This document shows positions 4,313-44,119 of a stretch of 64,000 nt of DNA, piece by piece. Position 1 is the stretch's first letter. Each line of letters begins with the position of its first letter. Origin of the DNA: Bolinopsis microptera (taxonomy: Eukaryota > Ctenophora > Tentaculata > Lobata > Bolinopsidae); contig NC_087075.1 in assembly GCF_026151205.1 (NCBI RefSeq), positions 13,343,628 to 13,407,627 on the forward strand, written 5' to 3'. The position numbers were made by a program, and so were the translations under genes. The notes beneath the pieces are model-generated. The model had not been told where the DNA came from and made no database searches. It saw only the letters and a list, made by a program, of their open reading frames with translations.

Positions 4313-7300
4313 TCAAAAGATAAGATTTCTCCCCATCAGAGTTTTAGCGTCCATACTAGTCTTCTGAAGGTCCTCGCTAGCGTATTTTAACAGCAACTCC
4401 ATCTTCTTCTTCCGGAGAAGCTCAATCTCTACGTCTTTTTGTGAGGGAACCTCTAGTGGTGCTATAGTGTGTTGGTCTGAGGTGTCATCTTCCGTATCAT
4501 CCTCCTTTCTCTTCTCCTAAAGTTTAACGGAATTAGTAAATAATGTGATATCATGACAATAGCAATATGTAGTGACGACAAGAGTCAAGAGTTTAAAATT
4601 TAACAACAACAAAGATCTCTCGCCTCCCACGTGAAATTTGAACTTTTGGACCAGAAAAAAGAAATCTAACCAGAAGTTCCTTCCTCCTCTTCTCCTCCTC
4701 CTCCCGCTCCTTCTTCTCCTCTTCCTCCAGTTCCTTATCCAATTCTCCTGTCTCTTTCTTCAACTTCCATTCTTCTATCGCCAGATGTCGTGCTGATAAC
4801 ATTAGCTCGGTAAATTCGAGGTTATCGTTTGTAAACAACTACAACCTACTCACAAGTATCAATGACATGATACCAAAGTGTATATAATTATATTGGGTAG
4901 TCAGCTAGATTTAAATCATTTAACAGCTGCTTAGGTATCAACATTTTAAATTTGTACAGAATATTTTTGAACCTTTTTTCTCCACCTCCACCTCTAATTT
5001 CAACAAAACTCCATCCTCATCATCTAGATAACCATAATAGTACGCATCTATATCCTTCATAAGATCACCTCTATTCTTACGAGGAGGCTGTGGAGGGGCC
5101 TCCTCGAATAGTTCCCGCACTCCTGGTAAATCTTTTGCTGCTCCGAAATATTTGTAACCTGTAAGGAGGAGAATTATACATCATGATAGGAATTAAGATG
5201 TGTGCCTACTAGTTTTTCGGAATCAAGAAACACATGATAAGAATAAAAATAAATCTTACAAAATCTATTATTAAAACACAACATTGACAAACTAATCCCG
5301 TCTAACAAATAAGAAGGTTACGCTCTTGGTGAAGTACTAACCGCGATTGCCTGGCAGCTCTTTCCCCTCGTGATCCAACATTTTAGGTCCTATTTTGTGA
5401 TAGTTGGGCCCGCCTAGTTCCACTATCCTATCCTGCCTGAAAAACAACTTGTTAGTTTATTATAAAAACAATGGTTATGATTCCCATTTCCCACCGTTAT
5501 TTCTACATGTGAAACAAGCCGATGATACAAAATTCAGTGTTAATACGGTGATCGTGAGATTTAGTTATCTAAATATGCTTACCAATGTCCCTTTTCCCGG
5601 ATAAGTTTATTAATTTCGTCGTTCAGATCTCTGATTCTGAATTCTCCCAGACCAGCATTTTGAATTTGGGAAACCTTTCTGGCAATCTCCTTAATGATCT
5701 GATGTCTCCATTTCTCAGCTTCTTGGAGACTGTGACATTCTGTTGCAAGATACGGTCTTTTTTCCTGAAGAAATTGATATTGATTATAATCATAAAGAGT
5801 GTGATTGTCGACCCTAGGTAATTCATAGACGGCCCCAACTAAATAATATAATGGATGCGTATACGCGCGCGCGCACGCGTAAAGCTTCCTTGATATTTGC
5901 CAACAGTTTTACACTACCATTCAAATAATTTTGCGCGCGTTCCGTCGAAATACTTCAGAAGACCCTTTTAACAACAAAACGCATTGGCAACCATATTGAC
6001 CACTGTGATACTTTAATGTTGACTATTGAATTTCAGTGTATTAACAAGTGAAAGGCTTAACTGAGGTCCACAAACTTTAGATTGTGCATTGGCGACTTAT
6101 ACAAGATATAATGACCGTCATGTTAATAAAGCAGTCAAGGATGCAAAAGAAGCCATCGACACACTCCTCTCAAGTTCCAGTGCTAAAATTGTTGTCTCCC
6201 TGCCCACTCCAACTCCTGGCCCAATAAGTGATCTAACAAATCAATTTGTTTCGGAGATCACCCAATTTGTCTCCACTAAAAGAGAGCTTAGTGACTTATA
6301 CCGGCGCCTCTTCACTGTAAACAACACTGGAAACTTCTCCCGAGCCATCTCTGCTGCTGAGTCATCTGAAGACTCTCCTAACCCTCTGAAGGAAGACCAA
6401 CTTCATGTCTCAGAGTATGGTCTAAAAAAACTCTGTATGAATATCAAACTTGGCCTATACCGTGCCTTTGGTATGAGATCCTATAGAAAGCAGCCCCCCA
6501 CAGAGCGTTAGAATAACCATGAAATTCAATAAAAAACAAGCCTCACGAGATCAACTCGCTGTAATGTCCTGGAACATTCAGGACAGCACAGGAGATGGGT
6601 CTAACAAATTTGAAAATAAAGAATTTCTTTCAATCCTCAATCAAGCTAACATTCTGTGTCTCCAAGAAACAAAGAAACAAGTTAAGATTGAAGGATACCT
6701 TTCTTTTAATAGCAACCGCAAAAATTCTCGCTCAGGAGGGGTCTGCATTCTTGCTGAAAATGATTTAAGAAAAGGTGTCTCTTGTGTGCCTTGTAGCGAA
6801 TCTGACGATATTATTGTTGTCAAACTTGACAAAAACTTTTTTAAGCTTGATTTTGACCTATTTTTAGTATGTTACTATATTAGCCCTGCATATTCGTCCT
6901 ATGTCAAAAAAAATCCAGACTATACTGCTAATACTTTCTCCGCTCTTGACTCCATCTGTATCAGACTACGTCAAAAGGGAGAGGTTATCATGTGTGGCGA
7001 TGCAAATGCAAGAACTGGAAAACTCCCAGACTATATCCTCTCTTGTAATGCACCTGCCATGCATGACATTTACAATGACATTGGACTTGAACATGACATC
7101 GAAGAACCCAGAAACAACTCTGACCTGACTATATCTGAACCCCACTGCCAACATTTTCTTGACATGGTTATTAATAACCAACTCAAAATTCTTAATGGCC
7201 GTACCCTCGGGGACACCACTGGAAAAATGACCTGTCACAAATACAATGGGAGCAGTGTGGTTGACTATTTCGTAATCACCTCATGGGCAAGGGATCATGT

Positions 7301-10300
7301 AAACTCTCTCCAAGTGAAGGAGTTTACATCATACTCTGACCATTGTCCATTAGTCTTGAAACTTACCACATTTGAACCATTTGTTGCCAACTTCCAGCTC
7401 CCAGACTTTTCTAATTTTCCTTGTGGCTATAAGTGGGACAGCAACACCTCTCACTCACTATTTAAAACAGCCCTTAACTCGCCCGAAATTGTTAGTAACC
7501 TGGAAAACATTGCAGCAAACGAATTTAGCAGCACCTTGGAGGGCAATCATGAACTGAACGATGCAATTACTAACTGTCTCCACAGTGCTGCTGATATAGC
7601 GTTAAAAGTGAAAAAACCTCCTAAAACTTCCGCCCACAAGAAATGGTTTGACCCACAAATCAACTCCTCGAGGCGAAACCTGAATAGGCTAGCAAACCGG
7701 CTAGGTAGTAAGCACTGCAACAATATTCTCAGACGTGAATATTACAAGCAGCGCAATAAGCACAGTAATCTTGTTAACAGTAAGAAATTATCTTTTCTTA
7801 GGAAGTTAAATGAAGCTATTGAAGAGGGTCATATTCTTGACTGGAAAAAATTTAAAAGGCTTAAACAAGAACATGACACTAGCCCCCTACTAGACAAATT
7901 CGATCTAGCTAGCTTTCATGATTTCTTTGCATCCCTCTATAAGAAACCAGACCAGGAGCCCGATCCCACTCACCACAATCACAATCATTACCCTGAACCA
8001 CCAGATCTGGATATCCTAAACAAGCTCATATCTGAACCCGAACTAACTTCTGCAATCAAAAAGCTCAAAAAGGGTAAAAGTTGCTCAAATGACTTGATCT
8101 CAAACGAAATGCTTCAGAGCCTAACTCCGCTTTGTCTCCAAGTCATCCTCAAAACGTTCAACCACTCTCTGGTCTCAGGTTACTATCCATGGCATACCAG
8201 TATTATCACTCCTATCTACAAATCAGGCAACCCCTTCAGCCCAGACAATTACAGAGCAATAGCAGTTGGCAGTTGTATGGGTAAGCTGTTCTCTAGCATT
8301 TTACTTGAACGTCTGTTATACTTCAAAAAGCTCTACTGTCCTGATCCAAAAGAACAGCTCGGTTTCTCGAAGGGTGCTCAAACTAATGATCACGTTTTCA
8401 CCCTTAAGACAGTCATTGATAAATACACTAAAGTTAAAAAAGCTCGTCTCTATGCATGCTTTGTTGATCTAAGAAAGGCCTTTGACACTGTATGTAGGGA
8501 CCTTCTTCTGCACAAAATAACATGCCTTGGAATTACCGGTAACTTCTTCAACTGCTTAAGTGATATGTACAAAAACTCAATTGCTCATATAAAAATCTCC
8601 AAACTCTTGTCCCCTAAAATTGATATTGGCAAAGGAACGGAGCAAGGACACCCCCTATCACCAGACCTTTTTAAAATCTATATTAACAACTTGTCATCTC
8701 TTCTGAAATCTGTTGGTGATTATCCAGTTCTTGCTGACGTTCTAATATCACATCTGCTCTGGGCTGACGATCTTGTCCTTCTTGCTCTAAGTCCCAAGGC
8801 CTTGCAAGTCAATATCAACATTCTATCTGACTTCTGTAACTCCATGGGCCTTGAAGTAAATATAAAGAAAACTAAGATTGTCATATTCAGCCCTCCCAAA
8901 AAGAAGCAGTCCCATGAAACATTTACATTGGGAGGTCAGCCCATCCAGCACACCGAAAAGTACTGCTATCTTGGCATAATATTCCACAGAAATGGATCCT
9001 TTACGGCAGCAAATACTGAGCTGAGGGCCAAAGCTCTCCGTGCTCTATATGGCCTTAAAGGCAATATAGTTAAAGATGCCCTCTCTCACCGTGCCCTTAT
9101 TATTCTATTTGATTCCTTAATCAAACCAATCCTGCTTTATGGCTGTCAAGTCTTATGCCCCCACTCTAAAACAATGAGATACCTTTCAAAAATAGATGAC
9201 AAAGCCAGCCCCCAGCATACCCTGAAGTACATTGCACAGGACCACTATGAGAAATTCCACCTAAAATTTATCAAGTGGTCTTTGTCCGTCCATTCAAAAG
9301 CATCAAATATAGGTTGCTGGGGCGAAAGTGGGCGCCACCCCCTATTCTTTGAAGCCTGCAAACTTGCAATAGATTACTATAGTCGCCTTGAAAGCACCGA
9401 AAATGAACTACTTTGTGCTGCATTTCACGAGCAGATCATGCTGGGCCTTCCTTGGTATACCAACATCTCAAAGCTTCTCACCAAATACAACTTCCCCCAC
9501 TCATCTTCATCAAAATCTAAGCTCTCCACCCAAATCAGTCATAATATGAGGGAAGAATTCGTGAATACCTGGAAATCTGCCAAGGCCTCCTCACCAAAAC
9601 TAGAATTCTATAACTTAATTAAACATGATTTTGAACCAGAGGCATACCTACGAATAATCAAAGTACCTGATTTTCGAAAAAGCTTGACAAGGTTTCGTAT
9701 CAGCTGCCACAACCTCTACGTTGAAAGGGGCAGATACGAAACCCCTCTTGTACCAAGAGAAGAACGTTGGTGCACTTACTGCTTTTTCAGTAAAGGGCTC
9801 AAACCTATCGAGGACGAAAGCCATGTATTAATTGACTGTTTGCTTTACTCCTCAGTTAGGGAAAAATTCAACTTTTATCCCCAAAACATCACTGACCTAG
9901 CCGGTCTGCTCTCCAACAAAAATCTAGATCCTACCAAATTTACTGCCACAGCAAGAGCAATCCATTCAATTCTCTCTGTGAACGAACAATATACAGCCTA
10001 TTATAAGAGCCCAGATTTCCACTCAAATACTGGCAAGTGCATAATGCTCTAGGAACTCAAAATAAACTCATGAACCATACAAATTTGATTTACTTAAAGA
10101 AAATAGCATTATATTATAACATTTCTATTTTATCCCTACACATTTGTAAATGATTAGAAGTGTGTAACTTAAATTATTTCAGAATTATAACTATTGTGAA
10201 CTCAATAAAATAATTATCACTTTTGTATCCTTGTATCCTTGTATCCTTGTATCCTACAAGTATTACTGGCACATTGTCAGATTTTTCTGGGTGTTTCAAA

Positions 10301-27600: not shown

Positions 27601-28199
27601 TGTGTTAAAACATAATTCTTTGTCGACGTTTCGGCTACATGCCTTTGTCATAAACAGGACGTACTGAAAACTTACATAGCTGCAAAGATACAATGTTAAA
27701 ATAATCTATTAATACTACGAAATATAACAACAACAAATAACATCTTGAAACACAACAACAACCACAAATTTTTCCAAAAGAAACATAAAATATAACGGCT
27801 AAAAGAATCCACACCGCAACAAGCCGTGAACAATTCCTCATAGTACTACAAACATTTTACCAAGATAGCTCCTTCATAAAACTGATTAATCAAAAATTAT
27901 ATAGGTTTATAAGTTCAATATTACATTAACTTCCAAGTATATTTTATCCAATCACCTTCATTTACGGACTCAGACAATTGAGTATTTATTTCTGGGTTTT
28001 CACGTTTTATTAGAACCGACTGCCACAATTGACGGTCCACATAGTCTTTACATCTTTTTCGAACTGTAAACCGAAACGGTATGTTTGGCATTGAAATGTC
28101 TGCATGCTCCTCTAGGTAGTGCTTCCCGATGGCCGTAGATTTGTTGCCATCCCTTACTGATTTGTAGTGCTCCCAGGCTCTACTTCTTTTAAACCTACG
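27600..28199 (-). mobile_element. Penelope-like element, 5'-truncated 3' end
   Basis: On the minus strand a coding tail (28199-27921) is followed by about 300 bp of untranslated sequence and a motif around 27624-27655 reading ATGACAAAGGC...GCCGAAACGTCG. The GAAACGTC word after a short hairpin resembles the hammerhead-ribozyme-related sequence of Penelope-like elements, although the CUGAUGA part is not canonical. The 5' truncation point abuts the start of the open frame at 28193 on the other strand. Confidence 0.6.
27921..28199 (-). pseudogene. GIY-YIG endonuclease C-terminus of a Penelope-like element
   Basis: An open frame of 92 codons on the minus strand ends at the TAA at 27923-27921. It reads SVRDGNKSTAIGKHYLEEHAD, then IPFRFTVRKRCKDYVDRQLW and LIKRENPEINTQ. 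The I-G-x-H block, the basic F-x-V-R block and the E-N-P-x-I-N end fit the C-terminal GIY-YIG nuclease of Penelope-like elements. The GIY and YIG strands and the whole RT are missing, so it is a fragment. Confidence 0.65.
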
Positions 28200-29440: not shown

Positions 29441-30428
29441 AATCGGAAGCCCTAAGACAAAAAAACAAAACCCAAAGGGAAAAAAAAACAAGAGCAACAA
29501 AAAGACTAGGGCAACCAAGAAAACTAACGACAATGCAGCTAACACTACCGCAGAAACGAGAAATTGTGCTAATGTCACTTCGGATAGCAATGCTATATTA
29601 CATGCCACTCAGCAGAACGGAGAGGATGATAAAATCACTGAAAACACCGATGAACCGTCTGCACAAGACTCAAAGACTGCTAGGTGTTTTCCTACCACAC
29701 CAGAAGAATCTGCTGAACCACATGAACTTGTCCCCAAGAAAGGCAAACCAAAAATCGGAAGAACAGAGGAAAAAAAACCAGACCCAACAAATCAAGCTAC
29801 TGGAAGCCTTGGAATGAGCAATCCAGCATTTGAAAAACCCCTCAAAATACTTGAGAATAGTATTCTCAAGCTCCAAGAAACAACGAGCAATCAACAAGCT
29901 CAGCTGGAACTTTTCAAGAAAGACCAAATAGCCAAAAGCGTCGACGCAGAGTTGTCAGACCTGAAAAGCAAAGTGCTATCTCTCTTAGAGATGATAAAGA
30001 TTCAGCAAAGCACCCTTGACAACCTTGTTAATCAAAGATCGACTCAAGAGCAACAAGTTGGGACTTCCAAAGCTCTACTTACAAATCCACCCAAACAAAT
30101 GATGAACAGAGAAACCCAAACTACAAACCCCCATGATCACAAAATAAATGACAGAGGGACTCATACCGAAACATCATGTCAAACAGATCAACCAGCTTAT
30201 AATACATCACCATCTCTGATTGAAAGCAAAGAAACCCAGACCATCCTTATGATCAGAGAAGCGCCCTCGCCAAACCAGAGATCTACCACTTGTAGGGCTA
30301 CAGCTAACAATATTGAACAACAGCCGGAAAATAAAGAAATTCCTCCCAACAGAGCTGACCAAACTGAAGAAAAAACCCAAACTAGTACTCCATCACAATA
30401 TCGTAATACTTTCAACACTACTATATAA
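29430..30428 (+). CDS. Coiled-coil, Lys/Thr/Gln-rich ORF continuing the previous frame (+1)
   Basis: The frame is also open upstream to 29322, but the meaningful part begins at the A7 run where the preceding ORF stops. It has a basic N-terminus (KKQNPKGKKNKSNKKTRATKK), an acidic middle, a coiled coil (ILENSILKLQETTSNQQAQL ... LSDLKSKVLSLLEMIKIQQ) and a C-terminal series of short TQT and ETQT motifs (RETQTTN, GTHTETSCQT, SKETQTI). I recognise no family; basic plus coiled-coil layouts are common in LINE ORF1 RNA-binding proteins. One extra A in the homopolymer would explain the split from the previous ORF. Confidence 0.4.
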   Translation, partial: KKSRIGSPKTKKQNPKGKKNKSNKKTRATKKTNDNAANTTAETRNCANVTSDSNAILHATQQNGEDDKITENTDEPSAQDSKTARCFPTTPEESAEPHELVPKKGKPKIGRTEEKKPDPTNQATGSLGMSNPAFEKPLKILENSILKLQETTSNQQAQLELFKKDQIAKSVDAELSDLKSKVLSLLEMIKIQQSTLDNLVNQRSTQEQQVGTSKALLTNPPKQMMNRETQTTNPHDHKINDRGTHTETSCQTDQPAYNTSPSLIESKETQTILMIREAPSPNQRSTTCRATANNIEQQPENKEIPPNRADQTEEKTQTSTPSQYRNTFNTTI

Positions 30429-30469
30429 CAAATAATTTGAGGAATGGTATGTTACAACTCCCCCGAAGG

Positions 30470-30535
30470 GGCGTACTAAGCTAAGGGTCATCTACACTCT
30501 ATTAGGGTCATCTACACTTTACTAGGGTCATCAAC
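30470..30535. repeat. Short triple repeat AGGGTCATCTACACT
   Basis: Three copies of (a)gggtcatc(t)acactctatta, period about 22-23 bp, in the 200-bp gap between the coiled-coil ORF and the PHD ORF. It may be part of the leader of element A. Function unknown. Confidence 0.6.
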
Positions 30536-30624
30536 TCTGAAGTCCTAATCCCCTCCAAAACAAAACACTTAACGGGAGCCGACCCCAAGTCGGATCTATT
30601 TGGTCAGTATTACTTATATTTGAT

Positions 30625-32690
30625 TTGAGAATGGCGACAAATACTAGGAAGAATTCAGGTACTCCTAAAACATCTAATAGCTTGTCTCGCAACATTTTAG
30701 CTGAATCTACAGTGGACAATGAAGATCAGGAAAACAGGAAACATAGGGACAAGAAGAAATGTCCATGTCAACGCTCTTTTAACGGTAAAGTTTACCTCAT
30801 TGACTGTTCTAAGTGTCATCAAGAGTGGCATGTGGACTGCCTGTCTATGAAGGGTATAACGAGGTCAGCTATCAACTCCATGGTAGAATGGCTGTGCCCA
30901 TACTGCTTCGTGGCACCAGTATCAACACTGAAGAAACAGAGAGGTGAATTTTGTTACAGCTGCAGGAACACAAGGGCTTTGCAACAGGCCAACTCAGATT
31001 TTGAAGCATCTACAGCTGTTAAGAATCTTGAAACTGTCAGTGCACTCGTGGCATCAGCAAGCTCAGCAGGCTCAGCTCTTGAAAAATTTGACTTCGAACA
31101 GTTCTCTAGGAACCTTGACACTCTCTCCCAGTTCGACGTTCACCTTCAACACCTGCTTCTTAAGGAGAACTCCCTTAATGGGCTAAATAATGAAATAAAG
31201 CTTCATGACAAATCATTAGAATCAATCAATACTAATATTGCCGAACTTCAGAAGGACCTGAAACTTCTGTCATCCAGACCATCTACAGAACCATCCTCAC
31301 CCTCAGCTTCATCTGAGCAGTTTCTGAAGGACATCTCTGAACAGCTCACTGTACTCTGTGCCAATGAGCACACTGCAGCTGCAGGCATAAGTGAATTGAA
31401 ACAATCCTTAGACTCATTACAGCCATTGCATAATCCTGGCCACTGCATTCCTCCCACCCCATTGCATCCAGGACCTCCTACTCAGCACCTTCGTTCTCCA
31501 GTCCCTACAGTCCCTGTGCAGCTACCCAATCATGAGCAGAAACCTGTGGAAATGTTCAAAGATGACTACATTGATCAGCAAACAGCAAATGATTTAGGAG
31601 AACTTTTTGTTAAGGACAGCAGTCACTTCAAAGTTGAGAACGACCGCTCCTGCCTAACATATGGGGAAAGGTATGATTACCCAGGTTCCAAGTCATCTGA
31701 AAAGCCACAGGCAAATACCATCGGTTCTCAAGGAACTCATTGACAAAATCAATAATGAGTTCTGCCAGGGTGATCTACCTCAGATCAACAGCTGCTTAGT
31801 AAATCGGTTTGAAGGAACAGACAGCAAGCTACCTAGACACTCTGATGACGAGGCTACCATCCATCCAGAGTCTAAAATATTCACTGTCTCGCTTGGTTCT
31901 GCATGTCAGGTTTCTTTCTCTGACTCTCACACAGGCACTGATAAGCACAAGCAGCAATGTGACCCACGGTCCTTGTATGTTATGACACGTCATAGCCAAG
32001 CACTGTTCGACCATCGTATTGATGCAGGTGATATAGAAGGGCTACGTTACAGCATCACACTTAGATCCGTGAATTCGTTGAACAGAAATGCCACATGCAT
32101 CATCGGGGATTCAAACACTGGAGGCTTGAAATTTGGTACTGATCCTGCTAAGTCATTCGGCAAGTGGTTACCTGGCAAACGCATCTTCGCTCCGGTCATT
32201 GATAATATAGATCCTTATGTCACGTTGGGGTATAGAAACTGTGTAATATTGTGCGGGGTCAACGACCTCAAAAACGAAGACGTCAAGAACCAACATGATA
32301 TTGAAATTATTTATAACGCATTAGCTTCAAAGATTGCACAGATACAATCTGTCAATCCGTGTATACATGTTTTTGTTTGTCCAGCAATTCCCTCTAAACG
32401 TGCTGACTTAAATAGAAAACTTATATATTTTAACAGTTTGATTCGACGTAGGCTGCTCCCGTCCAATTTTGGTGTCAGTTATGTGGATGGATTTGATGAG
32501 TTCTGTGATAGAGATGGTCTACTTGACCGCTCTCTCTCTCTCGCGACCTCAACAAACACCAAAAACCAGACTTCCTTCACCTCAACTGGAGGGGACTAGC
32601 AAAGTTAGGTCAATTTATTCGTAACACTGTTCTTCTCAGGATTAACGGTGGTATCGACAAAAGGAAGAGGAGGTCCACAAAGTAGACAGT
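30625..32690 (+). pseudogene. Element A ORF1: PHD finger, AlkB-like dioxygenase, SGNH hydrolase
   Basis: Frame one (30625-31743): basic N-terminus, a PHD-type zinc finger (KKCPCQRSF ... CSKCHQEWHVDC ... EWLCPYC, about 30757-30906), then a coiled coil (NLDTLSQFDVHLQHLLLKEN; HDKSLESINTNIAELQKDL), a Pro-rich linker and the start of the next domain (LTYGERYDYPGSKS). A one-base shift near 31690-31710 leads to frame two (31661-32599): AlkB-like 2OG/Fe(II) dioxygenase with NRFEG, PRHSDDE (His and Asp ligands), SLYVMTRHSQALFDHRID (distal His) and RYSITLRSV (2OG-binding Arg pair), followed by an SGNH hydrolase with IIGDSNTGG (Ser), CGVNDL (Gly-x-Asn-Asp). A third shift near 32545 gives the final PDFLHLNW (Asp-x-x-His). 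All catalytic residues are present but the frame is broken at least twice. Confidence 0.82.
31730..32085 (+). other. AlkB-like domain of element A
   Basis: Metal ligands His and Asp lie in P-R-H-S-D-D-E (about 31838-31858), the distal His in F-D-H-R-I-D (about 32006-32023), and the R-x-S-x-T-x-R signature about 32045-32065. The order and spacing match the double-stranded beta-helix core of AlkB homologues, which remove alkyl groups from bases in DNA or RNA using Fe(II), O2 and 2-oxoglutarate. Substrate is unknown. Confidence 0.8.
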
Positions 32691-32733
32691 AGATCCTTCA
32701 GGGATGTGACTGCTGGAAGAGAAACTGGTCCTG

Positions 32734-35700
32734 TTGTTCCTGCTGCTGCTAGTCAGGGTCACGTGGATGGCTACCAACCACATGACTCCCCTCATTAAGG
32801 AGGTATGTCTTGTCTGTTCTAAGAACATAGTCATCGGCCAAACAATAGTTGAATGTTTCCACTGTGACTGCATAATGCACCATAAATGCTATCGCAAATC
32901 CAATACAAATAGCCAATCTAATGAGTTTTACTGTACTCGTTGTATCCATTTAGACAAGGTTAAATACAACCCATTTAAACTACTCACTGACAATGACAAC
33001 GACGACAACAACCTAGACGAATACACAACCAAAATCTCGAATACTTTAAATAATTGTAACTCATACACTGCATCTGACCTTACCAATATTCTCTGCAACC
33101 AAGTAAAGAAACAATCATCTATTCTCTTTCAAAATATTGATGGAAATAAATCAAATTTTGACAACCTTGCCATTGAAACCTGTAGGTACAAAACAAAATT
33201 CTCCGTAATAGGCCTTGCTGAAACCAACACTGGGAAAGAATTAAGCAACCTATTTCAGCTCGACGGTTATAATAGTTACTATCAGGACACAGCACCTAAC
33301 AAACAAAAGGGCACTGGAGTAGCCCTTTATGTTGACGATAGATTAAATGCTACAGTAATTGAAAATATATCACAAGTCAGAGAACATCTAGAAATACTTG
33401 TCTTATCATTAAGTAACGAAGATCAACCTGTTAATGTAGGTGTTTTGTATCGTCCACCAAGTGGCTGTATTTCCCAAGCTCTAGTTGAACTTTCTAACCT
33501 TCTTGATCACATGCCGAAGTTTAGTTATCTAGCTGGAGACTTTAATATCGATCTTCATGATAAAGATAACAAAATGTACAAAAATATGAAGAAATATTGT
33601 TCAGTAAAGGATTTTGTCCGTTAATATCTATTGCTACTCACGAAGTAGGTATGGACATGTAGTTAGAATGCAGACTCTAGACTACCGAGGTTTCTGTTGA
33701 ACTGGAAGCCAAACTATGGAAAGAGGTCAAGGGGCAGACCCCGTAAGAACTGGAAGTCCTGCGTACTCGAAGATGCTGCTAGGTTTACAGGTGTTGAAAA
33801 CATCGACAACGACACAACAGAAGCTTTGGCTACCAACCGAGTACAGTGGAGACATATGTTACGCCGCCAACGCGATGTGTGTGATGCAGGCCACTCCAAC
33901 GACTAGGAGGAGACCTTACCATGTAACATGTATGTAACTCACGAAAAACCAGGCTGTAAAGCATCTTGCATAGACAACATAATTACCAACGACATTGAGA
34001 ATGTTATTACTTCAGGCACCCTAAAAGAACGAATAACTCACCACTCGCCTATTTTTAACATATTTAACTGGAATGTTGAAGTCAACTCTGGAAAAACTCC
34101 TATTAAACAGTATTACGATTTCTGTCAATCAAATGTTAACGGCTTCCTAGTGGATCTTGAAGATGAGCTTAAAACTAAAATAATCCATAACTTTACTGAA
34201 TTCTATTGCATGACACTTACAAAAACTGCATCGAAAAATCGTTTAAACTAGAAACCCCGAAAACCTCTAAGAGAACTGTTAAGGTTAACCCTTGGATAAC
34301 TCCCGGTCTCATTTGCTCAATTAATAATCAGCATAAACTGTACGAAAATTAGGTTGAGATAAGAAATAGAAAATGTAAACTCGGGGAAACTGATAACAAG
34401 GGCGGGATTTGCCAGTGCCCTGAATGCTCACTAAAACGTAGTCGCTACCTTATCTACAAAGAATACAGAAAAGTCCTAAAGAAAACACGTCAAAACAGTG
34501 AAAACAGATTACTTCTCTGGTAAATTTGCAGAAAATAGCGGGAATAGTAAAAAGACCTGGGAACTAATTAATAGTATAAGAGGAAAACGGCGGCGTGAAA
34601 TAAAGCCGCTGTTCACCATAGACAACGTTAAGATAACGAACAGGAGGATCATAGCAAACGAATTCAATAAGTATTTCGTATCATTGGCCTCTGACCTAAA
34701 TACTGCTTACAATGAACTTGGTCAAATGAACATAAACAATCTACCTAGTTTCTATGACTATTTACCGCTCTCAAACACCTCCAGCATTTACATGCATGAC
34801 TGCACAACAGACGAGGTTAGCAAAATCATATCTGAACTTAAGAACGGTAAGGCAAGTGATATTCCTATTCATGTTGTAAAACAGTCCTCAAAAATAGTCA
34901 CTCCTCTACTTACTGTACTGTACAATGAATGTATGAAAGATGGCATATTCCCTGATGACCTTAAGATTGGAAGGATTAGTCCAATTCACAAGAAAGATAA
35001 CCAGGAACTCCTTGAAAATTATAGACCTGTGTCGACACTTGCAGTATTTGGTAAAATATTTGAAAAAATTATATTCAACAGATTATATAGCTTCTTTCAT
35101 TCACAGAATTCCTTGTATGAAAACCAGTATGGATTCCGTAAAAATCATTCGACTAGTTATGCTTTAAATTACTCTTAGCAAAGCTTTTGATACAATCTCA
35201 CATGAAAAGTTACTGCATAAGTTAGAAAATTATGGGATCCGTGGAAATGCAAACAACCTTATAGCAAGTTACCTGTCGAATAGATACCAGTATGTCTCAG
35301 TATTAGGTGAAGACTCTGAGAAACTGCCCGTTGTCTACGGAGTGCCCCAAGGGTCCTGTTTAGGTCCCCAGCTGTTTATCATCTACATAAATGACATCCG
35401 AAACTCATCAATTATAGGAACGTTTATACTATTTGCCGATGACACTAACATATTTATTGAAGAAACATGTGTCAGAAGACTGTACGAAAAGGGAAATGAA
35501 GTTTTAGCATCTGTTTATAAGTATATGAAACTAAACTTATTACATATTAACATTAAGAAATGCTGTTTTATCCACTTTAGACCGTCACGTGCCAAAGAGG
35601 AAGTAGAAAATGACGAGAACATATTAACTTTGAACAATGTTGTCATTAAAAAAGTCCAAGAAGCTAAATTTCTAGGTGTCATTATCGATGATCAACTTAA

Positions 35701-36030
35701 TTGGAAAACTCACACACGGTCACTTAACTCAAAACTTAAATGTGAAGTAGGTAAGTTATGCAGAATACGACACATTGTCCCTAAACAGTATTATAAGGAT
35801 TTATACCATACTTTATTCGAATCACATTTGGGATTTGGAATATCTGTATGGGGTGGTATCAGCAACAACCGACTCGAACCTCTCTTTAAAACACAGAAAA
35901 AGTGTATAGGAATTCTATTTGGGGATAGAGAAGCTTACTTAGAAAATTTAGAACTTGTGCCCGGACACGACCATTTGGTGAGCAAAGACTAGGTGTGGAC
36001 TTTTACAAAAAAGAACACTCTAAGCCCTTG
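32734..36030 (+). pseudogene. Element A ORF2: PHD finger, APE endonuclease, RT (broken)
   Basis: 32734-33624: second PHD-type finger (CLVCSKNI ... ECFHCDCIMHHKC ... YCTRCI), then the endonuclease: LFQNIDGNKSNFD, GLAETN, GVALYVDDRLNA, LYRPPSGC and LAGDFNIDL. A 292-bp LINE fragment interrupts it at 33645-33936. It then resumes with CKASCIDNIITN and HHSPIF to 34251, a frameshifted part with NPWITPGL to about 34490, RT 34500-35178 (KNGKASDIPIHV, ENYRPVSTLAVFGK, QYGFRKNHSTSYA), then 35179-35990. Compared with element B about 25 residues are deleted right before LSKAFDT, which removes the first catalytic Asp. GVPQGSCLGP and FADDTNIF follow. Not functional. Confidence 0.88.
33645..33936 (+). mobile_element. 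Nested 5'-truncated LINE 3' end with 9-bp target duplication
   Basis: Inserted into the element A endonuclease and flanked by ACTCACGAA (33636-33644 and 33937-33945). It encodes the last residues of another RT protein (YGHVVRMQ, KRSRGRPRKNWKSCVLEDAARF, NRVQWRHML) ending in a stop at about 33906, with only about 30 bp after the stop and no poly(A). The GRP-x-x-x-W-x-D tail is typical of many APE LINE RT C-termini. The coding sequence of element A continues in the same sense after it. Confidence 0.8.
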
Positions 36031-37747
36031 TCCTTTCCTCCATTCTCCCGTGCTGAAGAGTCTGCTGAAGAACTTGAAATCCAGGATAAACCTACAGTAA
36101 AACAACGGGCTTCAAAGAGTGATTGTCCTTGCCGATCAACATCAGATGGTAAGGAATGGAAGTTCAAGTGTACCAGATGTTTTCAGCACTGGCATGCTTC
36201 CTGTTGCAATCTCAAGGGTGCTAACAACATTCAGCACGATACACCTCTTGAAGCTTCTCTGAATATGATTCTCTCAGAATGGCTATGTCCATGGTGTTTC
36301 GATACATCATTCCCCAGACCAGGCTCCAGCATGTCAGCCAAGATGGACAACAACCTAAAGAGCTCTGTAGACTACAGCCAGAACATACAGGCTATATCAG
36401 ATGCTATTTCTAATGCTTTTGGTAACAGTATGCCTACTGTGGAGATTGTATCCCTGGAGACAAGACTGAAGAAGCTGAGTCAAGAGATTCATGAATTTCA
36501 GCAGTCCAGAAGTCCATCTGAAGCACCACCTGCTACAGAAATCCCCTCCCTAAATGCACAGAACCTCCAGTGTGTGATTACCTGGTCGATGTGCTAAGTG
36601 CTGAGATCCTCAAAGAAGTTACAGAGTTTCTCCTGGAGAGCCAAGCTAGTAATAAGTTCATCCCGAAGAATGGAAGACAGGTCCTTAAGTTTGGGGAAGA
36701 CTACTCTTATACTGGTGATTCAGACCCACCCCTATCCCCCACAATCCCAGCACCCCTTGCCTCAGCCATAGACGCAGTTACATCAAAGTGCAGACTGACC
36801 CATAAGCCCAACTCCATCCTAATAAACTACTACCCTCCCTCAGTTGATACCACCACTAGTAGCAAGCTCCCTTTTCACTCTGACGATGAGTCTGAGATTA
36901 TTGCTAACTCAGAAATTGCTACTATCAGCATAGGCGACGTCAGGAAGGTGTGCTTTAAGTGCATCTATGAGACCGGAAACGAAGCCTCAACTGAGTATGT
37001 TCATAGTGTGAGTCCAGAATCTAACTCAGTGTATGTGATGACACGATCGTCACAAGCCTGGTATCGTCACGGTATTGATGAAACAGGTCCAGCTGAAACT
37101 CAGTCTTCTGTGCAGACAGGAAGGTTCTCCATCACACTGAGAACTGTGAGCAAACAGTTTAGCCGGAGCTGCATCATCATGGGCGACTCTAACACCAAGC
37201 CCATCAAGTTCGGTGTCGGTACTGGAACCCTTGGACAGTCCTTCCCAGGTGAACGTGTTAAAGCCAACAAGGTCAGTGCAATAGACCCTAAGCTCTGCAT
37301 TGGTTATAGCAACGTCATCTTAGTTTGTGGGACCAACGATCTACGAGTTGAAAATGTGCAGTCACCTGGTGATATACACCAGCTGGTAGACATTCTCCAC
37401 CTGAAAATCCAGCAACTGTGCCCTAAGGCGAAGTTGTTTGTCACAGCAGTTTTACCGTCTAGACTCCCTAAGATGAATAAAAACATTATGGCATTCAACA
37501 GCTTGGTTGATGAAATGTTGTACTCTAGCTTTAACCAGACTGTATGGCACCTTGGTGTGGCCACTTTTTAGACGGTAAAGGGTTGCTTGCTATGAAACTC
37601 ACGAGAAATGGTGATGAAATCCATCTCGGAGAGCTTGGTATTGCTAAATTTGTGAGATGTCTGAAACAGTGGGTGTATGTGAGGGAGAGACAGGAGAGAG
37701 TAAGACAAAGGAAGGCCACCCGACCAGTGGGAGTTTATCCCACTTAG
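36030..37747 (+). pseudogene. Element B ORF1: PHD finger, AlkB-like dioxygenase, SGNH hydrolase
   Basis: 36030-36597: PHD-type finger (SDCPCRSTSDG ... CTRCFQHWHASC ... EWLCPWCF, about 36118-36300) and a short coiled-coil (VSLETRLKKLSQEIHEFQQ). A one-base shift near 36555 leads to 36570-37571: DYLVDVLSAEILKEV, then the AlkB-like core with INYYPP, LPFHSDDES (His103, Asp105), SVYVMTRSSQAWYRHGID (His167) and RFSITLRTV (Arg185, Arg191), then the SGNH domain with IIMGDSNTK (Ser207) and VCGTNDLR (Gly-x-Asn-Asp). After another shift the last block (37560-37747) holds RNGDEIHLGELG with Asp-x-x-His. It shares all catalytic residues with element A although the intervening sequence is strongly diverged, so the residues were under selection. 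PHD plus esterase is known for CR1 ORF1; the AlkB domain is the addition. Confidence 0.85.
36680..37150 (+). other. AlkB-like domain of element B
   Basis: Longer than in element A at the N-terminal lid (FGEDYSYTGDSDPPLSP then PLASAIDAV). The N-x-Y motif (INYYPP), H-x-D (FHSDDE), distal His (YRHGID) and R-x-S-x-T-x-R are all present in AlkB order. The best family-level comparison is with ALKBH-type demethylases and the AlkB domains of some plant RNA viruses (from memory). Substrate unknown. Confidence 0.82.
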
Positions 37748-37753
37748 TCTATC

Positions 37754-40700
37754 ATGATTATGAAACTTATTAAAGATGTGTGCGACCCCTGTAGTAAATA
37801 CATTAATATTGGCCAGCCACTCTTAGAATGTGAAAATTGCAGCAAAGTTGTTCATACTAAGTGCTTCAGATCCGCGAAATTTACAAGCAAAAACGGTCTA
37901 TGGATGTGCAGTGATTGCTGTAGTACAATAGAAGATAGGTATTGCCCATTTCCAAGCAGCCAAAGATATGATGATTCAGATAAATTCTATGATACAAACA
38001 ACCAGGAAGATGTCACCATAGCTAAATTCTCTTCAATACTTGAAGACTGTAAGCGTTACACAAAACAAGAACTAGCAAACTCAATCAGCAAACTTTTTCC
38101 TGAGAAAAATAAAAATTCTGCTTATCTGCCCGCTCTGTTTTGCAATATAGATGGGTTTGCTAGTAATTTTGACAGCTTTTTAATAGAACATAAGACCCTC
38201 CCGTGTAATTTTGATGTCATTGGATTGGCTGAGACCAACATCGATCCAAGCCAACAAGGCTTATACAAATCCCCTCCTATACAACATTTTGTCAAGTACC
38301 ATTCCCTGATAAGAAAAAAGGAACAGGAGTATCCTTATATGTCTCTGATCGCCTGAATGCTGTAGTAATCGAAAATCTATCTCACTGTACAAAAGATATT
38401 GAGTGCTTATTTGTTGAAATTACTCTTAGCTCGGGTGATAAACTGACATATGGGGTTGCTTATCGTCCTCCAAATGGCTGTAGTGAGACCTTTTGTCAAA
38501 CTCTTGAGGATATATCTAAGCAGTTGGCTGGTAAAAAGTTCCATATTCTTGGCGATTTTAACTCTAACCTCCTCAATGTACAAACCTCCAGCCAGCTATT
38601 TGAGGACACGTTACTTCGTAACAATATGTATCCTACTATATCACTTGCTACCCACTTCCGTCCTAACTGTAAAAACTCATGTATTGACAATATCCTCACA
38701 TCAGAGATAGATCATGTACTTCTCTCCGGTGTATTGAATGATAGGATTGGTGACCATGCCTTTATATTCACCTTCACGTCAATTCCTACCGAAAACAGTA
38801 CTGAAAAACTTAAACATGTTCGCTACTATGATTATTCAAGTTCCAAACTCACTAATTTTGTTAATGAACTCGAGGTGAAGGTGAATGACTTGACTCCCTC
38901 GGTAAACTTCAATGAGTTCTTGGACTGCTTCAATGAAACACTTGATAAACACTGTAAGCTTGATGTACCAAAAGTTACCAAAAGGACTCCCAAACTCAAC
39001 CCGTGGATTACCGATGGAATCATTGTCTCAGTTGAAAGAAAACATGAACTCTGTAGAGACTGGTCAAGCACTGTAACAAATAGAAACCCTGAGGGTAATG
39101 TACTGCTATATAAAGTCTTCAGTGACTACCGAAGAATGCTTAAAAGTATTATCAAGGTCGCCAAACGATCGTACTACTGCAATGAAATCCATAAAAATAT
39201 AGAAAACAGCAAAAAAACGTGGCAGATAATCAATGAGCTCAGGGGCAAGAAAAAGAAGCAAACTAAGCCTCCCTTTATCATAAACAACGAACGAATCATG
39301 AATCGTAGAGTCATAGCCAATGGATTCAACTCTTACTTTGTTTCTATTGCCCCTAAGCTCAATGAAACACTTAGTAGCAGTGAGGCCTCTGGTTTACCAA
39401 TTCTCCCTATAAAAACATTCTATGATTTCCTTGGAAAGACTAATGAAAAATCGATTATGTTAGAAGACTGTACACCTTATGAGATAACGGAAATAATAAA
39501 AGGATTTGAAAATGGAAAAGCAAGTGATATTCCTGTTAGTGTAATCAAAAGATCATCTCACGTAATTACACCGATCCTTAGTCGATACATCAACATCTTA
39601 ATGTCTAATGGCACGTTCCCCGACGTTCTAAAGACTGTAGAATAACTCCTGTATTTAAGAGGGAAACCCTGAAGAGATAGAAAACTACCGCCCAATCTCT
39701 ACTCTCTCTATATTTGGTAAAATCTTTGAAAAGATCATTTACTCAAGAATATATTCGTTTGCTAGCTCACAGGGTATAATATCTAAAACACAATTTGGCT
39801 TCAGGCAGTCACACTCTACTTCACATGCAGTTAATCACTCAGTAAACCTTATAACTGAATCTCTAAAACTTAAGCATCATGTCTTAGGCATATTCATAGA
39901 CCTTAGCAAAGCTTTTGATACAATAGATCATGGTACATTACTTGTCAAATTACAGGGCTATGGGATACGTGGGGTGGCAAATGATCTTATAAAAAGTTAC
40001 TTAACAAATAGATCACAATATACTGAAGTTGTTGGTGAGAAATCTGACGCCTTGAAAATACAGTTTGGAGTCCCTCAGGGTTCGATTCTTGGACCTCTCT
40101 TATTTCTCCTATATATTAATGATATCGCCAACAGCTCCAGTTTGGGATCATTTGTCACCTTCGCTGATGACACCAATATATTTGTGACTGGGAAATCTAA
40201 AAAGGAGGCATATATGCGTGGTAATTCTCTTTTAGCTAGTTTATATTCCTACATGCGAGCAAACAAACTCCATGTCAACTTGTCTAAATGCTGTTTCATT
40301 CACTTTAAACCAGCATCGTCCTCCCAGACTGACAATAATTCTGAATATACTCTAACCATTGATAACTTTCCAATAAAACAAGTTGCATCTGCTAAGTTTC
40401 TGGGAGTCGTCATCGATGAAAAGCTAACCTGGGAAGAACATATAAAATCACTTAGGCGTTCTCTCAGCCATGCAACATCAACTCTCTGCCGCCTACGCTG
40501 CTCCCTCCCAGATTTCTTACACCGCCAGTTGTATTACACTCTATTTGAATCACACCTCTCCTATTGTATCACGGTTTGGGGTGGGGCAGCCAAAACTCGT
40601 ATAAGTTCTGTATTCAAAGCACAAAAATATTGTCTCAGGGTACTGTTTGGCGACAGGGAGGCATACCTAGATAAATTTAAGACCTGTGCTCGTGCTCGAC

Positions 40701-41146
40701 CGTTTGGCAACCAAAATCTGAACAAAAAATTTTTCTTGAAAGAGCACACGAAACCTTTGTTCAAGGAACACGGAATACTTGCCGTCCAAAACCTGTACAC
40801 TTACCATTGTTTCCTTGAGCTCTATAAAATCATGAAATTCCGTGCTCCGATTTCCCTCCATGAAAATTTCACCTGCTCAAGTAGGAAACCCACCCTTATA
40901 CTAAGCCAAGCAGACCCCCCTGACAACTTCAATAGCAGAACGACTCGTATTTGGAACGTAATTGTGCCTAAGCTTGGTATACGTGACTACTGTCTAAGTG
41001 TGGCCTGCCTGAAGTCTAGGATGAAGCAATCACTGCTCGTCAACCAGCATAACCATGCTGATCTTGATTGGACAAACAAAGATTTCGAATGCTCTAATAT
41101 AAATTTTGACATTAAGTCCACCCTAGGGTCCACACATCCAAAATGA
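37754..41146 (+). pseudogene. Element B ORF2: PHD finger, APE endonuclease, RT
   Basis: 37754-38356: PHD-type finger (CDPCSKYI ... CENCSKVVHTKC ... WMCSDCC) and endonuclease start (LFCNIDGFASNFD, GLAETNID). After a shift near 38320: GTGVSLYVSDRLNA, AYRPPNGC, ILGDFNSNL, SCIDNILTS, IGDHAFIF (endonuclease Asp, Asn and His blocks), then the linker to 39645 with NPWITDGI and NGKASDIPVSV. After another shift: ENYRPISTLSIFGK, TQFGFRQSHSTSHAVNH, GIFIDLSKAFDTIDH, GVPQGSILGPLLF, FADDTNIF and AKFLGVVIDEKLTW, ending at 41146. All RT catalytic Asp residues are intact. The copy is interrupted by about two frameshifts only, so it is fairly recent. Confidence 0.9.
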
Positions 41147-41340
41147 TTATCTTGAAATTGAAAATTAGCTGGGTGTGCATTTTCCTTTGTCTTACTAACG
41201 TGTGTGAGCGCAGTGTAGTGAGAAAGTGTTTTTAACAGATTTATTATTAGACTTAGGATTATGATTTTTAATATATTACATTGATATAAGATTTATTTTT
41301 GATAGGTACTTAATAAAGTTGATGAATTTCCCTCCCTATT

Positions 41341-42400
41341 AAAATTTTAAACCCATTTAGTGAAAATTGATAAACGAAGATCTAGATATTGATACATATT
41401 ATAACCAACATTGCTTATATTCTGCCTTGTAAACAAAGAGCAAATCTTCTTAATGCCTTCTTCCTGTCCTAAAACTAAAACTTCATCCTATTAAAGTAAA
41501 GGCCAGTTGTTACCACAAGCTATTATACCGTCCCTCTCAAAAACATGCCTCAGCCTCCATCAAAAACAATTTTAGTTTTCAGTCCTTCTACGTACGGAAT
41601 CAAACGTTAATAAGCTTGCAGCTTCCGATGAAAATGTATTCAACTTTGTGTCATGCTTGAATTGGTTTTGGACCTCTTCAATGCTTTTAATTTATTTATT
41701 ATTGTTATTTGGTATTATGAGCTGATATGTATATATACATACGGTATCTAAAATTAAGCGTATAGCGAGCATATTTAACAATTTTTAAGCAATAATGTAT
41801 TGCGAGCAGCTGTAACTTAAATATCGCATAAAAATCATATAATTATAACACAAAACTAAAATTTTATTGGAATCTAGGTTAAACTAAGATAAAATTAATA
41901 TCAGCCCCTTCGCCACTCTCAGCAGTCAACCAGGGCTCATAAAAGCTTAACAGCGCCTGGGTCCGTTCACCAACTGTGCTAATGTGAGTGGCGGTGTGGT
42001 AAATGGTAAAACCCATTTTAACAGCGTGAATATTTCTCAAATATAAGCGCGCTAGCTGCTAGCATACTTGTATCATTTAATTTTTAATCAAATTTATTCG
42101 GATATATATTTATTGATTATGTATTGAATTGGTGATAAATAATAAAATTGTCTTTTCTCAAAAAATTGTCTTTTCTCTAGTTTCCAAAAATCTACCGAGC
42201 TAGTGTTCTGGTGTGCACAAAAGCCCCTAAGCCCGTGCATTCCTTGCCCCGCTAGCTGCCAGTCCTTGACAAACTTCCAATAGCAAAGATCAACTAGTCA
42301 TTTACAAATTGAGCACTATACAATTTTAATTGTTTTAAATATTTGACTTTGTAAAATGAGCTAAAACATTGATTTATTAGTTTCATTGATTTATTAGTTT
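41341..42400. other. No recognised gene
   Basis: AT-rich interval after element B. A word aaaaaattgtcttttctc occurs at about 42163 and also at 15502, at the end of another LINE remnant. At 42368-42404 an 18-bp unit (ttgatttattagtttcat) is repeated twice. Nothing coding. Confidence 0.45.
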
Positions 42401-42402
42401 CA

Positions 42403-42753
42403 TTGTTTAAGAATCAGAAATTGTTAACTGTTCACAACCTGTACAAGTACACTTGTCTCTTAGAACTATTCAAAATTAATAAGTTAGAGGAACCATTATC
42501 ACTGTACTCATCATTTAACAGGTCACCACGACGAGAGGATTATTTCATCACATCACAACCATCCTCACAATTCATCTACCAATCATCCTACATGTGGAAC
42601 AGCTGTCGACAAACATCAAGTAAGATAAGTTTTAATACTCCGACAAACGGGTTTAAGAATACATTGAAAATTGCTTTACAAGAATTGCAATTCAAGCATG
42701 ATACACTTGATTGGTGTGAGCTTAATTTTGCCACGAATAAGCTCAAGTTTTGA
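42403..42753 (+). pseudogene. C-terminal fragment of an element A/B-type RT
   Basis: A frame of about 116 codons starting inside the gene, with no proper start. It reads LTVHNLYKYTCLLELFKI, then EEPLSLYSSF, YQSSYMWNSC and DTLDWCELNF, aligning with the last 110 residues of element B ORF2 (NLYTYHCFLELYKIM, HADLDWTNKDF). It is a 5'-truncated relative of elements A and B, on the same strand. Confidence 0.75.
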
Positions 42754-43566
42754 TTAATGTGAGTTACTAAAATAACCACTTATCTTTCCTCATACATGCA
42801 ACCACTGCACTCCAACTAAACACATTATTTACCACAGTCCACACACCATACTCCACAGATGATATATTTATATATACACACAAACACACTAGTACCGAAC
42901 AATTGCACTGTAAAACATGCTCACGATACACTCAAAATTAGAAATATTCGGCTCGTATATGAAACTTAGCGACTTACACTCAGTGTACACCCAGTGTTAA
43001 CCAGTATTACACACTAGTAAATTCTACGTAACGCGCGAAAACAATAATTCTGTAGCGTTTTCATTGTCACATCTCACGTCGACGGGATTAAACACGCGCG
43101 CGCGTAACAACTTATCTTACTGCTAACTCAGCGACTAAACACACAACGACTTTGACAATTGACAGATGACTAAACAATTGTGAGTTATGACGGACTTAAC
43201 TGTATGGGTCAACTACTGAAACTATATTGTTTACTATCTTATTCATTATACTGGACATGAGATGACGAAGTATCTTAAGCAGCACTTTATACCCCCACTT
43301 AGAACTTGATTAGTCACGAACAATAGAATCATCAAAAACCAATACAATAAAACATCTTGATCAATAAATGCCTAGCAGCACCAAACAGCAGCCGTGTACC
43401 TTTTTCGACTCCGTGGAGTCCCTGATGGACTTTTGTTTACTTTTGTTAATAATCGGACCAACCTTTCTTTCTCGAAACATGTATCCTATTGTATTTCATT
43501 ATAGTATTAAGATGTAAAATATACTAGATATTACAACGAAATAGAGGTATACCAAATTGGCCCTTG
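42754..43566. other. No recognised gene
   Basis: AT-rich sequence with a short (cg)n stretch at about 43095-43106 (acacgcgcgcgcg). No coding or structural signal I can defend. Confidence 0.4.
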
Positions 43567-44119
43567 ATATGAACGGGGGGGTACCAATGGCATAAAATGG
43601 AGACAAATGGCATAAAAATCGTCAAATGGCATAGAAATTTCATGGCATAAATGGAAATTTAGCTTGGCCAATTCTCCATTTATGCCAATTTATGCCATTA
43701 ATTTAGGTCTTCATATTTGACCTTTAGGATGACTTTAGATTCGCAAATACTATTAGTACTTGAATAAGAGACATGTTTCATGCTTTATAACGCTTGGAAT
43801 GATCGTTAACGTCAAAGATTCATATGACAAATAACTAAATAAAGAAAATAGAAATGTATTATATCAAATATATACCAAACATTTCACTATTCAAGAATAC
43901 AAACATTGACAACACAACGATTTTGAATGTCATCAAGGAACAATGCATCTGATGTATTTGTCTTCGACGAGTAGCCATACATTAGGAGATCCATTGATTA
44001 GGCTATGTTCCTGGCAGTATTACTTCATCGGGCATGATTATAAGAAATAAATCTAACCACTCCTGTTGCAAAGTTCTGCTGAGATTTGAAGACTTTAAGA
44101 GTTTCTGTACTGCCAGCTT

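Follow-up and report, generated by a model that had tools for sequence, protein, structure and literature searches.

A stretch of 64,000 nucleotides from the ctenophore Bolinopsis microptera (assembly GCF_026151205.1, contig NC_087075.1, positions 13,343,628 to 13,407,627, forward strand; hereafter the window) was examined for two long interspersed nuclear elements (LINEs), designated A and B. By profile and motif comparison, both copies were confirmed to carry, in the first open reading frame (ORF1), an AlkB-type Fe(II)/2-oxoglutarate (2OG) dioxygenase with a PHD-like finger before it and an SGNH esterase after it. Several young transposon families of the same genome, comprising three LINE reverse transcriptase (RT) lineages and Helitrons, were shown to encode a predicted oxidative demethylase of this type, nearest by profile score to ALKBH3 and ALKBH2, within their own protein.

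The order of the three domains had been proposed in an earlier annotation made from the nucleotide letters (the original prediction), together with a hidden Markov model profile check of the AlkB part. In that check both AlkB domains scored above the curated cut-off of PF13532, 31.2 bits (Table 1). The motifs read as claimed: HSDDE, a distal H before ID, and RYSITLR or RFSITLR were found in A and B. The flanking domains fell below their cut-offs in both copies. The Cys/His pattern of the PHD-like fingers was discernible by eye, as were the SGNH blocks GDS, G(V/T)NDL and D-x-x-H in the longer copies L003 (A) and L040 (B). An SGNH domain with GDS, GxND and DxxH, which characterizes ORF1 type IV, was seen by eye in A, B and a further locus, L022. 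Pfam GDSL matches were below cut-off in every LINE protein scanned, including the A copy L072 (PF13472, 1.8e-06), and were absent in family C, described below.

The phrase "two diverged copies" used in the original prediction understated the case. The genome (264.7 Mb, 232 contigs) contains 32 matches to the ionotropic glutamate receptor channel family, in keeping with an animal. A search of it with PF13532 yielded 587 first-look candidates, of which 150 were scored; all listed matches were above cut-off. Nearly all tabulated AlkB matches (145/149) sat in a frame of at least 300 amino acids (aa), and 28 of the 149 had an RT 1.5–8 kb downstream on the same strand (among 150 tabulated RT matches). 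By comparison, one pair was found with the RT upstream and two on opposite strands.

Two further LINE families were identified among the carriers. Family C (L071) had an 851-aa ORF1 with AlkB (PF13532, 3.6e-22), no GDSL match and SGNH-like blocks seen by eye, and a 1191-aa ORF2 with RVT_1 (9.5e-28) and Exo_endo_phos_2 (1.6e-06). Family D (L069) had a 646-aa ORF1 with AlkB (5.7e-23) and a GDSL match below cut-off (8.3e-06), and a 998-aa ORF2 with RVT_1 (3.3e-39) and Exo_endo_phos (6.3e-06). The LINE combination of an apurinic/apyrimidinic-type endonuclease and an RT in ORF2 was found, with the endonucleases of A and B below cut-off. RT identity was 57% between A and B and 28–32% between A/B and C, A/B and D, and C and D, so that these were counted as three RT lineages. 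In Helitrons, a giant frame of 3388 aa (L030:40-3399 plus L073:1-6846) held SGNH (1.1e-06, below cut-off), AlkB, repeats, DUF6570, Rep and PIF1; Rep (Helitron_like_N, 1.5e-23) and PIF1 (5.9e-23), which identify a Helitron, occupied one open frame in L073. All six tabulated AlkB frames of at least 2000 aa also held a Helitron Rep. A Pfam scan of the C-terminal 382 aa of the L030/L073 protein gave no match; an H-W motif there is one that we take to recall Ulp1-type proteases.

AlkB adjoined an SGNH-type esterase in A/B, D and the Helitrons, and in C by eye only. Clear similarity among the SGNH domains was confined to A, B and L022 (E 3e-69 to 1e-32); that of the B copy L040 was 35–36% identical to the A domain and 49–52% to that of L022. 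The SGNH domains of D and the Helitrons matched B weakly (1e-05 and 6e-05), and C did not match B. Joint travel of AlkB and SGNH as a pair was not established by these comparisons. A PDB search with the L022 SGNH domain returned weak matches only, the best (E 0.0079) to a putative platelet-activating-factor protein.

The A and B families are young, with copies 98–99% identical to those of the window and a single open ORF1 (750 or 697 aa) elsewhere in the genome. For A, 12 matches covered the full 939-base query at 98–100%, window copy included, and a second subfamily was found at 80–83% identity (40 of 67 candidates scored). For B, 18 matches covered the full 1121-base query at 98–100%, window copy included, and there were partial ones too (40 of 64 candidates scored). 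ORF1 was open over 750 aa in one frame in two of the seven distinct A copies besides that of the window (L002–L008) and over 698–737 aa in three; a 697-aa single-frame ORF1 was present in 12 of the 18 B loci with the motif, the window's excluded. The host-genome search proposed in the original prediction thus produced intact copies, and its remark that selection had acted before the copies died holds for the window, where ORF1 of A and of B is split between two frames, but not for the families. An AlkB-SGNH query from L022 gave 106 matches, with 105 of 871 candidates scored, and these fell into classes of about 95, 48, 46, 44, 38, 36 and 35% identity. In every class some members aligned with most of the query in a single open frame, and the A/B type alone therefore comprises several subfamilies.

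Eleven LINE and Helitron AlkB sequences were aligned, and 13 positions were invariant (H, D, E, T, S, G, M, Q, H, R, S, T and R), among them the Fe ligands (H-x-D and the distal H), both 2OG arginines and R-x-S-x-T-x-R. In a nine-row alignment G, Y, L and N were additionally invariant. The motif of PF13532, H-x-D...H with R-x-N-x-T-x-R, was present, but its Asn position was Ser in 11/11 sequences. The residue after H-x-D was Asn in A2 (a subfamily of A), C and D, whereas A, B and the Helitrons have Asp (L015, L025 and L018 versus L003, L040 and L030). It lies near residues that set AlkB base preference and may mark different substrates. Equating the position in HSDNE with E. coli D135, which sets substrate range, was tried and dropped, the loop length differing by one and the mapping being ambiguous.

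The AlkB motif pattern matched 61 of 73 fetched loci, and the window. These loci are partly redundant: L001 and L039 come from the window itself, and L069, L070, L071 and L072 contain L015, L028, L035 and L002, respectively. The 12 misses were L053, interrupted by a stop within AlkB; L054, whose last motif carries one substitution; L056, with its AlkB frame broken; L061–L068, apparently partial or decayed; and L073, the second part of a Helitron. Individual copies do decay, as the stop and the substitution in the B copies L053 and L054 illustrate.

Ratios of nonsynonymous to synonymous substitution (dN/dS) were calculated between subfamilies by the Nei-Gojobori method, with 95% ranges from codon resampling. 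For the AlkB core the ratio was 0.165 (0.07–0.30; 84 codons) for A versus A2 and 0.133 (0.00–0.24) for D versus D2, where dS was high and the flanks were saturated or similar. Two C pairs gave 0.048 (0.02–0.09) and 0.043 (0.01–0.10), the remaining ORF giving 0.13–0.28. Six Helitron pairs gave 0.158–0.288 with looser flanks (0.36–0.94), one pair resting on two differences and another having an upper bound of 0.67. A, B and L022 were mutually too distant for the measure (dS infinite or >2), L022 being the only partner of B. Judged by these ratios, AlkB is under purifying selection in every measurable lineage, B not among them, and in C and the Helitrons its constraint exceeds that of every other part measured. 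The selection on the domain that had been suggested originally is supported by this range (0.04–0.29) and by the invariant Fe ligands and 2OG arginines.

When a profile of the element AlkBs was compared with solved proteins, ALKBH3 scored best (1.7e-29, the match spanning the domain core), followed by ALKBH2 (2.6e-23) and ALKBH8 (6.9e-13); E. coli AlkB (8e-11), ALKBH1 (2e-05) and ALKBH5 (1e-03) scored lower. The host genome has its own ALKBH2-like (L009) and ALKBH3-like (L010, L011) sequences. Trees were built with ALKBH2/3-like cellular rows only (human ALKBH2 and ALKBH3, L009, L010, and L011 in the first tree), and the elements fell outside these rows. In the trees that included the long-branched family C, a branch supported at 92/91 (19 rows) and 79/81 (14 rows) had all the element AlkBs on the same side; without C they formed a clade with support 100/98 (12 rows). 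The clades and groups for topology tests were picked after the first tree had been seen. A grouping of Helitron AlkBs with human ALKBH3 and L010 was rejected by the approximately unbiased test (p-AU 0.027 with C, 0.0039 without C). With C included, a LINE-only clade was marginally rejected (p-AU 0.033, 0.032); with C omitted it was not (0.199), so that nesting of the Helitrons inside the LINEs was not established.

LINEs move by way of RNA and Helitrons by way of single-stranded DNA, and ALKBH3 works on single strands of both RNA and DNA, ALKBH2 on DNA. The role proposed here, tentatively and at close to an even chance, is that AlkB removes copying-blocking methyl groups from the single-stranded intermediate of the element. 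The enzyme would ride with the nucleoprotein particle and act on LINE RNA (perhaps first-strand cDNA) or Helitron single-stranded DNA, oxidising methyl groups off the Watson-Crick face of N1-methyladenine (m1A), N3-methylcytosine (m3C) and perhaps N1-methylguanine (m1G). Left in place, such groups would stop the RT or the copying of the strand; their clearing would increase the number of insertions that reach full length. The PHD-like finger of A and B might tether the particle to chromatin, with the SGNH domain working separately, for example on lipid. According to one report, m1A and m3C stop reverse transcriptases, E. coli AlkB clears both for tRNA sequencing, and its variant D135S clears m1G before reverse transcription (PMC7968990). 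Because both kinds of carrier have single-stranded intermediates and m1A and m3C stop reverse transcriptases, repair of the copied strand would be the simplest common role. The idea put forward originally, that the element strips methyl marks or damage from its own RNA, cDNA or target, is plausible. The LINEs and Helitrons may, with a probability somewhat short of even, have in common a single captured stock of AlkB, specific to the elements, for repairing alkylated single-stranded intermediates, which would constitute mobile, self-contained template repair in animals, swapped between unrelated elements.

Several observations weigh against repair of the intermediate. The SGNH side of A versus A2 (0.083) was at least as constrained as AlkB, and selection shows that the domain matters, not why. 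Two 2OG-site positions are unlike human ALKBH3, the Asn of RVNLTFR being replaced by the Ser noted above and the Tyr of N-x-Y by Phe in A. Some families have HSDNE where ALKBH3 has HSDDE, and the substrate may therefore differ. Only 6 of 41 Helitron Rep matches shared a frame with a listed AlkB match, and first-look candidates numbered 6502 for RT against 587 for AlkB, so that most RT-bearing elements probably have no AlkB. From this scarcity it follows that AlkB is not needed for movement in general.

An unlikely alternative is that AlkB serves as a counter-defence or epitranscriptomic eraser, removing host silencing marks (N6-methyladenosine, m6A, on element RNA, or N6-methyladenine, 6mA, in DNA) or rewriting host RNA marks. 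The presence of 6mA in ctenophores, reportedly described by Dabe in 2015, would suit it, as would the AlkB-type domain of an orchid Ty3/Gypsy element, which demethylates RNA in vitro and was proposed to act against m6A control (PMC9289625). The element domains, however, score best against ALKBH3 and ALKBH2, not against the m6A eraser ALKBH5 or ALKBH1, and ALKBH5 suppresses rather than helps L1 in human cells (PMC7873242). An RNA mark would also leave the Helitron copies unexplained unless the target were 6mA. The Helitron copies and the likeness to ALKBH3 and ALKBH2 would favour repair of single-stranded intermediates over counter-defence.

The PHD-like fingers at the start of ORF1, and also of ORF2 in A and B, would fit a target-site or chromatin enzyme in which PHD contacts histone tails and AlkB takes methyl groups off target DNA or a chromatin protein, opening integration sites. 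This explanation is improbable: no PHD match was obtained in the proteins scanned from C (L071), D (L069) and the Helitrons (L030/L073), so the pairing is not general. Enzyme domains are sometimes retained for binding alone, and the Ser at the 2OG-site Asn of ALKBH3 would agree with a catalytically idle AlkB fold kept as a nucleic-acid-binding clamp. Little probability is given to this, since four carrier lineages that are only 26–33% alike in AlkB all keep the Fe ligands and both 2OG arginines unchanged, and the core is the part under strongest constraint in C and the Helitrons. That the AlkB parts are host genes or processed copies lying in elements by chance, as the host's own ALKBH2-like and ALKBH3-like sequences might suggest, is considered refuted for A–D and the Helitrons by the recurrence of uninterrupted AlkB-SGNH frames in many near-identical dispersed copies and by the separation, without C, of the element clade from the cellular genes tested.

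CR1/L2-group ORF1s with PHD and/or esterase are said to have been described by Kapitonov and Jurka in 2003. ORF1 types III and IV of this group carry these domains, and one L2 subgroup is reported to have a PHD opening its ORF2 (Metcalfe and Casane 2014, PMC4120745). The present elements resemble the group, so described, in the PHD finger, the esterase, the PHD at the start of ORF2 (one L2 subgroup) and a modular ORF1 exchanged between RT lineages; they differ in the AlkB domain between PHD and esterase. In the available text of that survey of Jockey-superfamily ORF1s, the terms 'oxygenase', '2OG' and 'alkb' each occurred 0 times. Phospholipid binding is known for the SGNH esterase of zebrafish ZfL2-1, and esterases of transposons are listed from several clades and from chordates, cnidarians and sponges (PMC3905857), so that an esterase alone is not new.

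Capture of an AlkB-type demethylase by a retrotransposon has its parallel in orchid Ty3/Gypsy elements, which carry a 2-ODD/AlkB ORF whose product is an RNA demethylase in vitro; plant RNA viruses (Alphaflexi-, Betaflexi- and Closteroviridae) also carry AlkB, for which RNA repair was proposed (both in PMC9289625). As described there, the orchid case is a plant long terminal repeat element with an additional separate ORF and activity shown in vitro, whereas the present domains are ALKBH3/2-like, lie inside ORF1 or the Rep-helicase protein of LINEs and Helitrons, and are of predicted activity. With the viruses they share, by description and not by sequence, an AlkB borne by a parasite with an RNA genome. 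The layout of catalytic motifs is that of human ALKBH3 and ALKBH2, with an equivalent (F/Y)G-x-x-Y-x-Y loop in most families; the human proteins are stand-alone cellular enzymes with RxNxTxR, the elements having RxSxTxR. The Helitrons resemble others with extra domains in Rep and the PIF1 helicase and differ in the N-terminal SGNH and AlkB. Helentrons, which are Helitrons with a CR1-like endonuclease, provide a precedent for module sharing with LINEs.

No report of AlkB in LINE ORF1 or in Helitrons was seen in searches of the open-access literature, in which most papers were judged by their listing; Repbase reports and subscription papers were outside the search, and prior mention is possible. 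LINEs with an enzymatic ORF1 and transposons with AlkB were already known; the combination, and its presence in Helitrons, was not found in that search. Within a single genome, one enzyme module occurs in transposons of class I and class II alike. If the proposed role is correct, base-methylation damage or marks would genuinely impede transposition, and so strongly that unrelated elements bring an eraser with them, and a LINE RT with a native AlkB would be the natural version of the AlkB-plus-RT mix of tRNA sequencing laboratories.

The interval 30625..37747 had originally been treated as two whole elements, and this was corrected by alignment (blastn) with the fetched copies (Table 1). L003 and L008 both start matching the window at 30404 (99%), which marks the 5' end of A. 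Element A is interrupted by B, a 5'-truncated insert ending at about 42402, after which A resumes. Copies among L040–L056 match B from 36030 (L056 from 36039) at 98.8–99.4%. The last match to L072 is probably the 3' end of A beyond another interruption.

Table 1. Positions of element parts and domains in the window.
Feature	Position	Strand	Evidence
Family C LINE copy, 5'-truncated: ORF1 end (SGNH-like by eye, no Pfam match) and intact 1191-aa ORF2; AlkB part missing	6104..10256	+	99.95% to L071
Element A, main part (5' end, ORF1, ORF2 to near end of RT frame)	30404..36029	+	blastn vs fetched copies
PHD-like finger, A ORF1 (below cut-off)	30760..30906	+	PF00628 19.3 bits (cut-off 24), E 0.0012
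AlkB domain, A ORF1	31688..32065	+	PF13532 (2OG-FeII_Oxy_2) 52.5 bits, E 9.7e-14
SGNH/GDSL esterase, A ORF1 (start set by eye at GDS block)	32093..32530	+	PF13472 24.5 bits (cut-off 32.9), E 4.5e-05
ORF2 of A, broken frames: N-terminal zinc finger, endonuclease, RT	32710..35992	+	frames; finger and endonuclease below cut-offs
Element B, 5'-truncated, inserted in 3' part of A	36030..42402	+	copies among L040-L056
PHD-like finger, B ORF1 (below cut-off)	36124..36297	+	11.1 bits; PF00628 E 0.42, PHDvar_NSD E 0.012
AlkB domain, B ORF1	36693..37142	+	PF13532 70.4 bits, E 3e-19
SGNH, B ORF1 (partial, start set by eye)	37173..37466	+	PF13472 15.3 bits (cut-off 32.9), E 0.028
ORF2 of B, broken frames: zinc finger, endonuclease-like part (below cut-off), RT	37748..41146	+	PF00628 2.5e-05, PF14529 0.0034, PF00078 1.5e-35
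A, continuation past B insertion	42403..43574	+	99.2% to L072
Further 3' match to L072	46976..47746	+	97.5%, blastn

The A endonuclease scored 22.6 bits against Exo_endo_phos, just under the cut-off of 24.5, and that of B was well under its cut-off (Pfam). Copy L072 has the same ORF2 parts as A, in two frames (RVT_1 2.5e-37). A PHD/C1-like zinc finger opens ORF2 ahead of the endonuclease at 32806-32943 in A and 37781-37918 in B. The C copy in the window is very young and has the hallmarks of a LINE insertion, namely 5' truncation, a 3' tail of TTGTATCC repeats and a target-site duplication, TACAAG being present on both sides (by eye). RT-like fragments of another LINE were seen by eye in the frames at 13682-14909; AlkB was not sought beside them.

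Directly upstream of A, at 28193-30428, two overlapping long frames contain TPEKTT-type repeats and a coiled-coil-like part; a Pfam scan of these ORFs gave no match, and they were not counted as part of A because the fetched A copies match only from 30404. Elsewhere in the genome, the ALKBH3-like sequence L011:1063-1950 is followed about 700 bases downstream by an open frame, L011:2662-3438, the end of which resembles, by its motif, an IAH1-type SGNH hydrolase. This neighbouring pair could hint at how AlkB and SGNH met.

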